DNA of 37,441 bases from Bdellovibrionales bacterium RIFOXYC1_FULL_37_79 (GTDB lineage: Bacteria; Bdellovibrionota; Bacteriovoracia; Bacteriovoracales; Bacteriovoracaceae), in NCBI GenBank assembly GCA_001770015.1, contig MEQB01000074.1, positions 1 to 37,441 of the forward strand, written 5' to 3'. Positions 929 through 6,565 of the stretch are shown piece by piece; the first letter of the stretch is position 1; every line of letters starts with the position of its first letter. A program made the translations under genes and the position numbers. The notes below the pieces were generated by a model that had not been told where the DNA came from, ran no database searches, and saw only the letters and a program-made list of their open reading frames with translations.

Positions 929-1435
929 ATGACTTTTAGATCAGTTCTTACCGTTATTCTTTTATCTATGGCCTTAGTCACTTTTACCAGTTGCTCAAAA
1001 AGCGCAAAAAAAACTGAAGGGGAAGAAGCCTTTTCTTCAACCGACATGTCTGAAGGTGATCTTCAATTAAACGCAGACAGCGACTCGGGAAAAGCTGGTG
1101 GATTGCAAACTGTGTATTTTGATTACAACTCATCCAAATTAACCGGCACAACCATAGCCACATTGAAAGATAATGCCGCTTTTCTTTCAAAAAACACAAT
1201 TGATATCCAAATTGAAGGACATTGCGATGAGCGTGGTGGTGTACAATACAACTTGGCACTGGGTGAAAAAAGAGCCGACGCTGTTAAAAAATACTTAATT
1301 GGCCAGGGAATTGCTGCTGCCAGAATTTCCACAGTAACTTTTGGAAAAGAAAGACCGCTGGCTTTTGGACATGACGAAGATTCCTGGTCAAAAAATAGAA
1401 GAGGTAATTTTGTAATTACTGCTACTAACAAGTAA
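929..1435 (+). CDS. pal: peptidoglycan-associated lipoprotein Pal
   Basis: A 168-residue outer-membrane lipoprotein. The signal peptide ends in a lipobox FTSC with the lipidated Cys at residue 22. After a polar linker, an OmpA-like peptidoglycan-binding domain runs from about residue 59 to 165. It includes EGHCDERG (96-103), whose Asp100 matches the diaminopimelate-binding Asp, LGEKRA (111-116) with the binding Arg, and NRR (156-158). Pal links the outer membrane to the cell wall in the Tol-Pal system. AGGAG at 918-922 precedes the ATG. The stop overlaps the next start by one base (TAATG), so translation is probably coupled. No tol genes lie in the window. Confidence 0.95.
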   Translation: MTFRSVLTVILLSMALVTFTSCSKSAKKTEGEEAFSSTDMSEGDLQLNADSDSGKAGGLQTVYFDYNSSKLTGTTIATLKDNAAFLSKNTIDIQIEGHCDERGGVQYNLALGEKRADAVKKYLIGQGIAAARISTVTFGKERPLAFGHDEDSWSKNRRGNFVITATNK

Positions 1436-1737
1436 TGGTAAAAAGACTGTCATTAATTATACTGATAATTTTGCTTGGGTCTTGTGGTCTTATTACAACA
1501 AGACCTAAGCTTGAAATGAGTCTCGCCGCTGTCGCTTTTATGGCCGCTCAAGATGCCAATGCCCCTAGTCTTTCTCCCAATTTATTCAGGAAAGCTGAAC
1601 ACTACTATTTAAAGGCCAAAAGTAATTACAAAAAAAAATATTTTAATAAGGCTAAACAATACGCTATCCTATCACAAAAGTTTTCCGAACAGGCTGAGCT
1701 CAACGCCCAATTAAAAAAATTAGAGCAAGATAATTAA
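1435..1737 (+). CDS. DUF4398-type small lipoprotein
   Basis: A 100-residue lipoprotein with lipobox LGSC and lipid-bearing Cys17. The mature part is a helical segment rich in Ala, Lys and Tyr with the pattern SLAAVAFMAAQ followed by KAEHYYLKAKSNY and KAKQYAILS. This fits the DUF4398 family, short TPR-like periplasmic helices often encoded near Pal/OmpA genes. The start overlaps the pal stop in TAATG. Its place between pal and cpoB suggests a role with the Tol-Pal complex; this is inference. Confidence 0.75.
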   Translation: MVKRLSLIILIILLGSCGLITTRPKLEMSLAAVAFMAAQDANAPSLSPNLFRKAEHYYLKAKSNYKKKYFNKAKQYAILSQKFSEQAELNAQLKKLEQDN

Positions 1738-1749
1738 AAAGGATAGAAT

Positions 1750-2532
1750 ATGCATCACATTACCACACTCACCGTTTGTTTCTTACTTACATTAATTGTT
1801 GCTTGCAAAACCACTGAACAAGTCCAGAGAGAAAAAATAGTTGATAATCTGTCTAATCGCGTAGTTAAACTGCAAAAGGATAATGCTGACTTATCGTTTG
1901 CTGTTAACGACCTTCAAGAAAAACTAAGCCAATTTCAAGGAAAAAAAGGTGAAGAGGACTACAAACAAAAAGAACTGACCCAAGAAATCGTTAACCGCAT
2001 TAGAGCTGATCTGGAAATCTTGCATGATGGGCTGGTCTCACTTCGAAAAGATCAAGAAGAAGTAAGAAAAGAAATGCAAGAGCAAAAAGCTTATATTGCC
2101 CAAGTGGTGAGTACGCTTGGAAAAATTAGTAATACTCCCACTGGAACCGGAACAAGCAAAAAAAAGACCAGCATTTTTGAAGAGGCTATCAGTTTATATA
2201 ACAGCGGAAAATGTGATCAAGCGGTCGTGAAATTTAAGATTCATATTGATAGTGCGAAGGCAAGTAGCACTGAAAAAGCAACCGCCCTTCATCACATAGG
2301 AATTTGTGAACACAAATCAAAAAATTATGACACCTCTATCGTGTCACTCTCCAAGCTAGTCACCAACTATCCTAAATCCCAAAAAGTACCCGAAGCCTTT
2401 TTTTATCTGGGCAAAAACTTTTTGGAAAAAGGCCAAAAAAATGAAGCCAAACAGGCATTTGAGGAAGTCGTCAAACGCTCTCCTAAATCCAAACTTGGTG
2501 AATCAACTAAAAAATTACTCAAGACTTTATAA
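1750..2532 (+). CDS. cpoB: CpoB/YbgF-like TPR lipoprotein
   Basis: A 260-residue protein with lipobox IVAC (Cys19), a long heptad-rich coiled coil at about residues 25-125, a Thr/Gly/Ser linker at 129-137, and three TPR-like repeats from about 143 to 255. This is the layout of CpoB (YbgF), which coordinates PBP1b and Tol-Pal during constriction. E. coli CpoB is soluble in the periplasm; a lipobox as seen here would anchor it to a membrane. AAAGGAT lies just upstream of the ATG at 1750, 12 bases after the previous stop, so it is the third gene of a pal operon. Its stop is two bases from the end of the convergent gene. Confidence 0.85.
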   Translation: MHHITTLTVCFLLTLIVACKTTEQVQREKIVDNLSNRVVKLQKDNADLSFAVNDLQEKLSQFQGKKGEEDYKQKELTQEIVNRIRADLEILHDGLVSLRKDQEEVRKEMQEQKAYIAQVVSTLGKISNTPTGTGTSKKKTSIFEEAISLYNSGKCDQAVVKFKIHIDSAKASSTEKATALHHIGICEHKSKNYDTSIVSLSKLVTNYPKSQKVPEAFFYLGKNFLEKGQKNEAKQAFEEVVKRSPKSKLGESTKKLLKTL

Positions 2533-2534
2533 TT

Positions 2535-4169
2535 TTAAAAATATTTTCCAAGCCCCAGGCTAATTTGATATTGACCAAAAGCAAGTTCACCGGTTTTAGT
2601 GACCACCAGATTTTTTAAAAACAATTCGTAATTTGTCGAGAGGGTGATTGATGCAGCAGCTTCATTTTCAACGTAATACGCATCATTCACATCTTCCAAA
2701 AAACTGGAGATGATTTTTTGTCTCAACAGGATTTTGCCACTTCTAAAAAAATTAAAAAAAATCATCCATTCTCCCCAGGGTCCCAACCGATCGTGTTTCT
2801 TGGTATAAGCACTCCGTTGATACTCGAGTCCGGTAAACAAAGAAAAAGTTCCTAGAAATGTAAAAGTTAAACCCATTCCGTAATAGAGACGATTTCTGGA
2901 TTTAAACGACAGATCAATATCTTGCACATAATCTTTTTTCAGGGCACCCTTTTTTGACCAGCCAAAATCTCCCTTGGTAACTGGATAAAGATAGGTGTAT
3001 TCAAAAATATTAATCTCGGGCACTTTGTATTTTTTCACCGTCGTATCGTAAGTAATATTAATTTTAAAAAAATCCAAACTACTATAATCTTGATAACCTT
3101 GGTCGCTACTAAGTAAGCCGTGATATCCCGCCTGATAACCAAGGCCCAAAATGGGATGATCCTCAGCTAGGATGGAGGTGAATTCAATTTTTTGAGTTGG
3201 GTGGGACTTATCCGGCCATGTTTTCTGGATCACCGCTTGGTTGTTTACTGAAAATCTGGTCTGATCTTTATCAGAGGAAAAATACTCCTTCTTTTCAATA
3301 TCGTCTGGATAGCTTGCGAGATTTCTAATTAGATCCCTTGGCGTAAAATAAAATTTATTATTTTTTATCAAGTTCCAATGATCTTTCCCAATTTGCAACA
3401 GACTTGCTATAAAAAAGGAACGATTTTCACTAATCAGATAATAATTAAAAGTGTTACTGTTTTGCAATTCCCAAATATGATTAATAATCCGATCCATCTC
3501 TTCAGGGGAAAGCCTTAATCGATACTCATAAAAAGTGCTGGAAAAATAATCAGGTTGATTTTTAATAAAGGTATCGTAGTCGGTTATTTTAATTTCAAGG
3601 CTACTAAGCCCGATCAACCTTTGCAACGGTTTGGGAAAGTAATAATTTTTAGTATTTTTCGCAATATTAAATAAACCTGCATATTCCTTATTTTTATCAG
3701 TTTTAATTTTTAAAAAGACTTCACCTAAAAAATCCGCTGTCTTATTCACTAGAGGTTGTTTAAAAATCAAGAATATTTCAAGGGGACGTAAATCATTCTT
3801 CCATGATTTAAATTCTCTACACTCAATTTCTCGCAAATCGGTAATATTTAGATTCTTGATCAATTTTAATCTTTCTGGAAAAGCACATTGGGGATGGAGT
3901 CCTTTGTCTCCGACCAAAGGAAGGCCAGTTTGAAAAGCATTGATCGTTTCATTTAACTCTTTTTCGGGATCAAAAGATCCTTCCCTATAAAAAAAGAAAT
4001 CATGCCGATCTGCCCTGCTATAAGAAGGTAAAAAAAAGTTTTGTTCAAAATGGATGAGCTTGAGCCAATATTCCCCCAATCCCCTGGCCTGCAATCTATC
4101 GTAATAAGTAGCACAGATCAGTCCAGGTGATACAAATAATAAGGCAAAAATCAGGAGAAATTTAATCAT
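2535..4169 (-). CDS. Lnb/DUF4105-like protein with barrel-like C-terminus, catalytic residues replaced
   Basis: A 544-residue exported protein with a signal peptide cleaved near ICA-TYY (residue 20). The N-terminal part has the pattern of DUF4105-family proteins: a helical start, HPQCAFPER (92-100), a DFLGEVF block (146-152) and a YYLISENRSF block (243-252). From memory of the family, the two blocks normally read GHT and NCS/NCT and supply His and Cys of an LRAT-like site, as in Bacteroides lipoprotein N-acyltransferase Lnb. Here Glu150 and Arg250 occupy those positions, so activity is doubtful. The last 200 residues show alternating amphipathic strands ending in KYF, typical of an outer-membrane barrel. 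Divergent from tsaD. Confidence 0.6.
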   Translation of the reverse strand: MIKFLLIFALLFVSPGLICATYYDRLQARGLGEYWLKLIHFEQNFFLPSYSRADRHDFFFYREGSFDPEKELNETINAFQTGLPLVGDKGLHPQCAFPERLKLIKNLNITDLREIECREFKSWKNDLRPLEIFLIFKQPLVNKTADFLGEVFLKIKTDKNKEYAGLFNIAKNTKNYYFPKPLQRLIGLSSLEIKITDYDTFIKNQPDYFSSTFYEYRLRLSPEEMDRIINHIWELQNSNTFNYYLISENRSFFIASLLQIGKDHWNLIKNNKFYFTPRDLIRNLASYPDDIEKKEYFSSDKDQTRFSVNNQAVIQKTWPDKSHPTQKIEFTSILAEDHPILGLGYQAGYHGLLSSDQGYQDYSSLDFFKINITYDTTVKKYKVPEINIFEYTYLYPVTKGDFGWSKKGALKKDYVQDIDLSFKSRNRLYYGMGLTFTFLGTFSLFTGLEYQRSAYTKKHDRLGPWGEWMIFFNFFRSGKILLRQKIISSFLEDVNDAYYVENEAAASITLSTNYELFLKNLVVTKTGELAFGQYQISLGLGKYF

Positions 4170-4255
4170 ATTATGTTATACCCTTTCTTGGTTCAAATAT
4201 GTATTATTTTGTGCTAATCTCCTGCCACTTTATACAACCTGTGGAGCTAACCATC

Positions 4256-5314
4256 ATGAGTGATTTATACATATTAGGAATTGAAACCAGTTGTGATGAT
4301 ACCTCCATTGCTATTATTAAAGGCTCCAAAGGACAATACGCCACCCGGCCTGACATTCTTACCCATAAGCGTTTTTCGCAAGACACCATGTTGGAGAAAT
4401 GGGGAGGAGTGGTTCCAGAAATTGCTTCCCGAAATCATTTAAAAAAACTGGTGCCCCTTTTAGAGGAATGCTTTAAAGAAGCCAAACTATCCCCAAAGGA
4501 TATCCACTTGACTGGAGTAACCACTCACCCGGGCCTACTGGGACCGCTACTGACTGGGATCAATGCGGCCAAAACACTTGCTCTTTTATACCAAACGCCC
4601 CTTGTCCCTATCAATCACCTTTTTGCTCACTTGGAGGCTATCTTTTTAACTAAAGAAGTCCCTTACCCCTATCTTGGTCTTTTAATAAGTGGCGGACATT
4701 CCATGTATTTTTTAGTCACTTCACCAACTGATTTCGAAATTCTTGGATCAACTATTGACGATGCAGCGGGTGAGGCACTCGACAAAGCAGGAAAACTACT
4801 TGGGCTTGGATATCCCGCCGGAAAAGTTATTGATGATATGGCCAAAGAAGGCGATAAAAATAAATATAAGTTCCCTATTGGTTTAAAATCCAGCTCCAAT
4901 GCCACCCTAAGTTTTTCAGGAACTAAAACCTCCCTGCGACTTTTTTTGGAAAATACCAAGGATTATAAACTTAGTGATGTATGTGCCTCCTACCAAGAAG
5001 CGGTGATCGGAGCTCTTTGTCTCAAGCTAAAATACGCAATAAAAAAAGCCAAAGAAAAAACCCGACTCAACTTACCTATCGTAGTGGGAGGGGGAGTTGC
5101 CTGCAATTCATCTCTTCGCCACACTCTTGGCGAAAAATACAAAGATAATGTTCATTTTGTGGCCCCTGCTTTTTGCACAGACAACGGTGCGATGATCGCC
5201 AACTATGCCCTAAGAACTTATGATGACCAAATAGGGTTTCCTGAATGTTTAAAAATTGATGCAAAAAGCAGATATATTTCCAAAAAAACCTACCAGGTTT
5301 TAAATCATGAATAA
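4256..5314 (+). CDS. tsaD: tRNA N6-adenosine threonylcarbamoyltransferase TsaD
   Basis: TsaD transfers the threonylcarbamoyl group to A37 of tRNAs reading ANN codons. At 352 residues it is close to the family length (about 340). Seen in order: IETSCDDT (9-16), GGVVPEIASR (50-59), the metal-binding HLFAH with His121 and His125, LISGGHS (143-149), TIDDAAGEALDK (166-177), SFSGTK (219-224), GGGVACN (278-284) and CTDNG with Asp309. An in-frame start at 4199 would add 19 residues but has no ribosome-binding site. GGAG at 4243-4246 serves the ATG at 4256, where homology begins. The stop overlaps rsmA by 8 bases. Confidence 0.96.
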   Translation: MSDLYILGIETSCDDTSIAIIKGSKGQYATRPDILTHKRFSQDTMLEKWGGVVPEIASRNHLKKLVPLLEECFKEAKLSPKDIHLTGVTTHPGLLGPLLTGINAAKTLALLYQTPLVPINHLFAHLEAIFLTKEVPYPYLGLLISGGHSMYFLVTSPTDFEILGSTIDDAAGEALDKAGKLLGLGYPAGKVIDDMAKEGDKNKYKFPIGLKSSSNATLSFSGTKTSLRLFLENTKDYKLSDVCASYQEAVIGALCLKLKYAIKKAKEKTRLNLPIVVGGGVACNSSLRHTLGEKYKDNVHFVAPAFCTDNGAMIANYALRTYDDQIGFPECLKIDAKSRYISKKTYQVLNHE

Positions 5315-6107
5315 AATAACTGCCAATAAAAAACTCGGACAACATTTTCTTAACAACAAACATGTTGCTGAAGTCATGACCAAAGACTTTGCTGACGTAG
5401 CTGAAGGAATTATAGAAATTGGCCCAGGCAAAGGTGTTTTAACCAAATACCTAGTTCAGTGGCAAATACCCTTCCATATCATTGAAAAAGATGATCGGAT
5501 GATCGAGCCCTTGAGCGAATTTTTAGATTACACTCAAATCACTTGCCAAGATGCTTTAAAAGTCGATTTACCGGAGCTGATAAAAACTCTCGGATGGGAA
5601 GGAAAAAAAATTTGGGTTATTTCCAATCTGCCCTACAATGTTTCGGTTTTAATTTTACTTCAATTAATCAAAACCGACTCCATTAAATATATGACCCTGA
5701 TGTTTCAAAAAGAAGTTGCTGAAAAAATTTTTAATTTTACTAATCTAAAAAATCCCATGAGTTCCCTCATGGGGATATGCCTAAATTACTTCGATTTAAA
5801 ACTTTTATGCAAAGTTCACCCAGGATCATTCAACCCTCCCCCCAAAGTTGAATCGGCTGTCATTAGTTTTAAACGTTTTGATCATCCGGAAGTTGCCCTT
5901 AAAGAATTCGATTCGCTCGAACAATTTTTAAGACGACTTTTTCAATTTAAAAGAAAACAGATGGGGGGTATACTCAAAAAATACTACCCACTTGATATTC
6001 TGATTGATACATTTAAGATAATTGATAAGGAGTTGACTGCCAGAGCTGAGTCCCTGGCATTTAAAGAATTAATCTGCCTGTATAAAAACTTAAAAAAAAT
6101 CAGTTAG
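5307..6107 (+). CDS. rsmA: 16S rRNA dimethyladenosine transferase RsmA (KsgA)
   Basis: RsmA dimethylates two adjacent adenosines near the 3' end of 16S rRNA late in 30S assembly. The 266-residue protein has LGQHFL (10-15), the SAM-binding IEIGPGKG (36-43), EKDDRM (60-65), the catalytic NLPY (107-110), and PGSFNPPPKVESAVISF in the C-terminal half. All key motifs are intact and the length is usual. The start lies inside the tsaD coding end with only a weak AGG upstream, so it is probably translated by coupling. smpB follows after 8 bases. Confidence 0.96.
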   Translation: MNKITANKKLGQHFLNNKHVAEVMTKDFADVAEGIIEIGPGKGVLTKYLVQWQIPFHIIEKDDRMIEPLSEFLDYTQITCQDALKVDLPELIKTLGWEGKKIWVISNLPYNVSVLILLQLIKTDSIKYMTLMFQKEVAEKIFNFTNLKNPMSSLMGICLNYFDLKLLCKVHPGSFNPPPKVESAVISFKRFDHPEVALKEFDSLEQFLRRLFQFKRKQMGGILKKYYPLDILIDTFKIIDKELTARAESLAFKELICLYKNLKKIS

Positions 6108-6115
6108 GTATTACC

Positions 6116-6565
6116 ATGGGAATAAAAATAGTTTGTAAAAATAAAAAAGCATATTTTAATTACTCTATCAAGGAAAAGTTTGAAGCAGGTATTGAGCTTA
6201 GGGGTACCGAAGTCAAATCTATTCGTCTTGGCAAAATCAATATTAACGATTCATATGTTAAAATTGATGAAAATAATGAAGCTTACATCATCAATATGAA
6301 CATAGCTCATTATGAATTCGGAAATATCAATAATCACGAGGAAACCAGAAAAAGGAAATTGCTACTTCATAAAAAGGAAATCAAGGAACTCTCTCATCAA
6401 GTCATGACTCAAAGAATAACCATTGTGCCGATCTCTGTTTACTTCAAGGATTCAACCGTAAAAATTGAAATTGCCATTGCCCAAGGAAAAAAACTGCATG
6501 ATAAAAGAGAAGATAGTAAAAAAGCCGAAGTCAACCGAAGATTGCAAAAAGGCCAGTTTGACTAA
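6116..6565 (+). CDS. smpB: SsrA-binding protein SmpB
   Basis: SmpB binds tmRNA and brings it to stalled ribosomes. The 149-residue protein shows NKKAYFNY at the N-terminus, EKFEAGIELRGTEVKS (20-35), the RKRKLLLHKKEI block, and the C-terminal KKLHDKRED motif that begins the tail entering the mRNA channel. TTAGGT lies upstream of the ATG. It closes the tsaD-rsmA-smpB operon, and its stop overlaps the end of the convergent exchanger gene by 4 bases. Its RNA partner is encoded about 6 kb away at 1-110. Confidence 0.96.
   Translation: MGIKIVCKNKKAYFNYSIKEKFEAGIELRGTEVKSIRLGKININDSYVKIDENNEAYIINMNIAHYEFGNINNHEETRKRKLLLHKKEIKELSHQVMTQRITIVPISVYFKDSTVKIEIAIAQGKKLHDKREDSKKAEVNRRLQKGQFD

Follow-up and report, generated by a model that had tools for sequence, protein, structure and literature searches.

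Lnb, the lipoprotein N-acyltransferase of Bacteroides, is a DUF4105 protein, and DUF4105 has been reported as a sister clade of Tox-Act1, a phospholipase that needs both a His and a Cys residue and whose toxicity is abolished by alanine substitutions (PMC12994826). One passage of another source on the context of DUF4105 merely guesses at transporters. Closer to the protein described here are the barrel-type DUF4105 proteins, which combine DUF7843, Lnb_N and DUF7840 domains and occur in Bdellovibrionota, Gammaproteobacteria, Geobacteraceae, Campylobacterota and Leptospiraceae.

We analysed a stretch of 37,441 nucleotides (the window) from Bdellovibrionales bacterium RIFOXYC1_FULL_37_79. It encodes a protein that shares with the barrel-type proteins the three Pfam domains, the predicted fold with its 12-stranded barrel and the invariant residues C95, C117, R100, E71 and N249, and whose relatives share its genomic locus. 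It differs from them in having lost the catalytic His and Cys, the conserved K-E-Y-E-R positions (201-211), a helical subdomain and the DUF3015 gene next door, all of which they keep. With Bacteroides Lnb it has the Lnb_N domain family in common, but it lacks the catalytic His and Cys, carries DUF7843 and an outer-membrane barrel in addition, and comes from a genome that has Lnt, while Lnb is expected to acylate diacyl lipoproteins in a host lacking that enzyme. As for Tox-Act1 and TseH, permuted NlpC/P60 lipid-acting effectors, they belong to the same permuted papain-like superfamily; unlike Tox-Act1, the window protein lacks the His and the Cys, and it is encoded on the chromosome and predicted to lie in the outer membrane. 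Within the barrel-type Lnb_N family it stands for a branch of pseudoenzymes, known to date from the genus of the window only.

Domain make-up and predicted structure

The gene is an uninterrupted open reading frame with the following features and neighbours.

2535-4169, minus strand: gene of the Lnb_N pseudoenzyme, 544 amino acids (reading frame inspection and Pfam)
4110-4169, minus strand: signal peptide, about residues 1-20 (sequence inspection; helix 2-28 in the model, of low confidence past residue 10)
3855-4073, minus strand: DUF7843 domain, residues 33-105 (PF25225, 51.9 bits)
3885-3887, minus strand: Cys95, family-invariant and non-catalytic (Cys in 99% of intact members)
3819-3821, minus strand: Cys117, family-invariant and non-catalytic (Cys in 99% of intact members)
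3312-3815, minus strand: Lnb_N permuted papain-like domain, residues 119-286 (PF13387, 61.3 bits)
3720-3722, minus strand: Glu150, in the aligned column of the catalytic His
3420-3422, minus strand: Arg250, in the aligned column of the catalytic Cys
3192-3305, minus strand: short linker replacing the four-helix subdomain of intact members (models of both kinds of protein; alignment)
2538-3191, minus strand: predicted 12-stranded outer-membrane beta-barrel (DUF7840), residues 327-544 (model; PF25222; matches to barrels)
929-2532, plus strand: pal, DUF4398 lipoprotein and cpoB-like TPR genes, conserved neighbours, convergent (synteny)
4199-6565, plus strand: tsaD, ksgA and smpB, conserved neighbours, divergent (synteny)

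The initial annotation had placed the protein in the Lnb/DUF4105 family and had seen a barrel-like C-terminus. The first assignment stands, the PF13387 match being well over the Pfam cut-off of 22.2 bits (E 1.1e-16), and the second agrees with twelve consecutive strands predicted from residue 327 to 543 and with a DUF7840 match over residues 318-518 (PF25222, 43.9 bits). With its DUF7843, Lnb_N and DUF7840 domains and its barrel, the protein has the architecture of the barrel-type family, and it belongs to this branch, not to Bacteroides Lnb proper. NCBIfam and PDB sequence searches returned no matches.

The AlphaFold2 model (54 sequences) has a pLDDT of 88.6 and a pTM of 0.88, and that of an intact relative (pLDDT 92.0) has the same order of elements plus extra helices. 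PDB fold searches yielded essentially barrels: the C-terminal half resembles the solved outer-membrane barrels Tsx, EstA, NanC and OMPLA (Z 10-15), and for the papain-like half the fold is taken from its Pfam match and from the models. The traits of an outer-membrane protein, all of them predictions, comprise a signal peptide, an even number of strands and a C-terminal aromatic residue, Phe544. The barrel is predicted to lie in the outer membrane and to keep the papain-like domain in the periplasm; as the strand count is even and the soluble domain N-terminal, this is the side expected for that domain, barring its export by way of the barrel.

Replacement of the catalytic residues

The Pfam Lnb_N motifs GH[TS] and NC[STA] are both missing. 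Residue 150 is Glu within 'LGEVF' (codon GAA, 3722-3720), where the family has GH(T), and residue 250 is Arg within 'ENRSF' (codon CGT, 3422-3420), where it has NC(S). We aligned 124 distinct homologues with MAFFT, among them the window protein and an orthologue from the same genus. The catalytic columns hold His and Cys in 121 sequences, a masked residue and Cys in one, and Glu and Arg in two; the last are the window protein and the orthologue, which are 75% identical, and the Cys column holds Cys in all 122 others. The loss of both catalytic residues, as first proposed, is thus confirmed. The orthologue comes from a separate assembly, RIFOXYA1_FULL_36_14, where the two codons differ synonymously from those of the window (GAG and CGA), which makes a sequencing error very unlikely.

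An active site built on another His and Cys had been named as the observation that would speak against a pseudoenzyme. The only Cys residues of the window protein are C19, in the signal peptide, and the two family-invariant ones, C95 and C117, so that there is no spare Cys for such a site and we ruled this candidate out.

Losses beyond the catalytic pair

The loss reaches beyond the two catalytic residues, to the conserved Lnb_N motifs, the helical subdomain and the partner gene. In intact members, 42 columns are at least 90% conserved. Of these, 17 are missed by the window protein and 18 by the orthologue, whereas the other homologues miss a median of 1 and no more than 9. Columns lost in both proteins make up 14/26 in Lnb_N, including the K-E-Y-E-R positions, 1/5 in the barrel and 0/9 in DUF7843. 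At 12 of the 14 lost Lnb_N columns the replacement residue is identical in the two orthologues. In the model of the intact relative, four helices (residues 304-375) stand between Lnb_N and the barrel, where that of the window protein has a short linker of low confidence.

The neighbouring DUF3015 gene

We scored DUF3015 adjacency at the homologue loci with a local HMM. Of the 121 His/Cys loci, 117 have a DUF3015 gene next to the Lnb_N gene, mostly upstream and on the same strand, as does the locus whose His is masked. As for the other four His/Cys loci, one is truncated at the end of its contig, at another (L041) a divergent DUF3015 gene scores over the Pfam cut-off, at a third (L027) a divergent one falls below it (18.5 bits vs 25), and at the last (L128) the search found no DUF3015 gene. 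Counting the sub-threshold case of L027, DUF3015 stands beside 120/121 testable loci with a non-dead Lnb_N gene. A sample of DUF3015 proteins from other phyla reached 100-173 bits against PF11220. By contrast, the dead gene has no DUF3015 gene at its locus in either genome: in the window genome DUF3015 is found only beside two intact copies of the Lnb_N gene, and in the sister genome only beside its intact copy. As a single evolutionary event, the joint loss of the catalytic dyad and of DUF3015 is no more than suggestive.

Across 39 related genomes, compared by eye, those bearing DUF3015 nearly coincide with those bearing a barrel-type Lnb_N gene. DUF3015 is likely a partner of the barrel-type Lnb_N enzyme, and a literature search found no description of this pairing. 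That non-dead barrel-type genes almost always adjoin a secreted DUF3015 gene, which the dead gene has lost, is new here. DUF3015 is reportedly mentioned in a Leptospira transcriptome study. A pair of the small secreted DUF3015 gene (PF11220) with an Lnb_N gene can be seen at positions 13534-16440 of contig C42 of the window genome (locus L037), and there are more than 100 homologous loci in several phyla.

Locus, phylogeny and selection

At the pal-cpoB/tsaD locus, three relatives (G022, G034 and G067) and several Bacteriovoracaceae records have a DUF3015 gene followed by an intact homologue. One of them, G022, is of a related genus, and its intact homologue (L110) occupies the window gene's own locus, so that the loss of catalysis probably took place there. 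The tree joins the dead pair to proteins of G022 and G012 (SH-aLRT 87), and the enclosing clade is rich in proteins of the pal-cpoB/tsaD locus (SH-aLRT 90 and 93). The stem of the dead pair measures 2.08 changes per site and its ends 0.13 and 0.15; with this long branch, the placement beside G022 has moderate support, and synteny agrees with it independently. The dead pair comes from the two available genomes of the genus and counts as one evolutionary event. The simplest reading of these sequences would be loss in place, followed by rapid change and then constraint.

A Tol-Pal role suggested by the cpoB neighbour was not adopted, since intact relatives share the locus and the position is therefore inherited. 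Two other genes were noticed in this neighbourhood. Positions 293-811 of the window encode a secreted protein of 172 amino acids that has no Pfam match and is kept upstream of pal in the sister genome and in G022. At the cpoB/tsaD locus of G022, an alpha/beta hydrolase gene (L043, 6665-7510) comes right after the intact Lnb_N gene; it is missing in the genus of the window.

Selection was gauged from the two genomes of the genus, hence from one orthologue pair with dS near saturation. Over the whole gene, dN is 0.14 and dS 1.30, close to saturation, giving a dN/dS of about 0.11; neighbouring genes range from 0.02 to 0.17 for the same genome pair. As the gene is open in both genomes and has this ratio, it is not decaying: a pseudogene is ruled out and, from these sequence comparisons, we are dealing with a retained pseudoenzyme. 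Identity between the orthologues is 86% over residues 1-118 and 69% from residue 289 to the end. The old catalytic segments are 76-84% identical, no less than the remaining Lnb_N domain, and conservation is lowest in the linker. DUF7843 is the best-kept part of the protein.

Possible functions of the retained protein

With its catalytic residues swapped and its partner lost, yet kept intact by selection, the protein probably has a non-enzymatic job. We consider it probable that it is a genus-specific pseudoenzyme derived from a once active barrel-type enzyme and now serving as a non-catalytic binding or scaffold module. Its ancestor, encoded at the pal-cpoB/tsaD locus, would have been an active enzyme of DUF7843-Lnb_N-DUF7840 architecture with a permuted papain-like domain and an anchor in the outer membrane; it would then have lost its Cys-His chemistry, most of the conserved Lnb_N motifs, the helical subdomain and the adjacent DUF3015 partner. 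By analogy with the biochemistry of its relatives (Lnb, Tox-Act1; PMC12994826), a lipid-related ancestor is plausible. The present protein, anchored in the outer membrane, might bind or serve as a scaffold, with DUF7843 and the remodelled pocket holding a periplasmic protein or a lipid without catalysis, and an ion pair between E150 and R250 may replace the Cys-His pair.

Alternatively, the barrel might be the working part, as a small outer-membrane channel for which the periplasmic domain is a plug or a remnant. The predicted barrel is similar to the channels Tsx, NanC and KdgM (Z 13-15), but OMPLA and EstA match too and such generic likeness shows no function; as the barrel is moreover less conserved than the N-terminal region, we regard a channel as unlikely. 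The protein could also act as a decoy or inhibitor of the intact paralogues, binding the same lipid, protein or DUF3015 without turnover, and the genome does keep two intact copies with DUF3015, the sister genome one. However, the motif region expected to hold a shared ligand has been rewritten at 14/26 columns and the intact copies branch far away in the tree, which leaves this role improbable.

That both orthologues have the same replacements at 12/14 lost Lnb_N columns indicates a pocket that is not drifting, as would be expected of a new enzyme using other residues of the remodelled pocket. Such an enzyme nevertheless appears quite improbable, given that the mature protein has no Cys beyond C95 and C117, shows no other residues recognisable as a catalytic set and matches no profile for another activity. 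Lastly, the single long stem branch and the prior loss of the partner and the subdomain could be the marks of a gene heading for loss. The open frame in both genomes, a dN/dS within the range of the neighbours and the fact that the codons for E150 and R250 differ only synonymously make such decay highly improbable.

The non-catalytic binding or scaffold protein that we favour would offer a clear natural example of a pseudoenzyme derived from an outer-membrane enzyme: a related genus has the intact ancestral type at this locus, and the cell itself retains intact paralogues. The parts dropped together, namely the dyad, the Lnb_N motif region, the helical subdomain and the DUF3015 gene, point to those that serve catalysis in the barrel-type family. 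It is tempting, if tentative, to speculate that DUF3015 and the barrel-type Lnb_N enzyme form an undescribed two-gene outer-membrane lipid-modifying module present in several phyla, with DUF3015 as a dedicated activator or substrate. In the genus of the window, one enzyme might have lost catalysis and with it the need for DUF3015, and become a new outer-membrane scaffold or receptor.

Other Lnb_N proteins and Lnt

The initial annotation had suggested looking for an intact second copy, and two were found in the same genome, head to head on contig C42; these paralogues stand far from the window protein in the tree. The sister genome has one intact copy, with DUF3015. The earlier proposal of a pseudoenzyme fused to a barrel is supported, and its link to lipoprotein N-acyltransferase holds as distant homology only; the genome encodes a separate Lnt (185 bits vs a family cut-off of 132.9). 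Plasmids hold only distant DUF4105 relatives.

Sub-threshold, distant Lnb_N-like matches were seen elsewhere in the window genome, on contigs C26 (263137-263301), C70 (20796-20909) and C36 (7995-8237), in proteins with none of the window protein's other domains. Read by eye, those of C26 and C70 have the GH and NC motifs, and that of C36 has a Cys, its His being unclear. G022 encodes two further Lnb_N proteins of different architecture (L177 and L179), with intact GH and NC motifs and an N-terminal HELAH/HEIAH zinc-protease-like motif.
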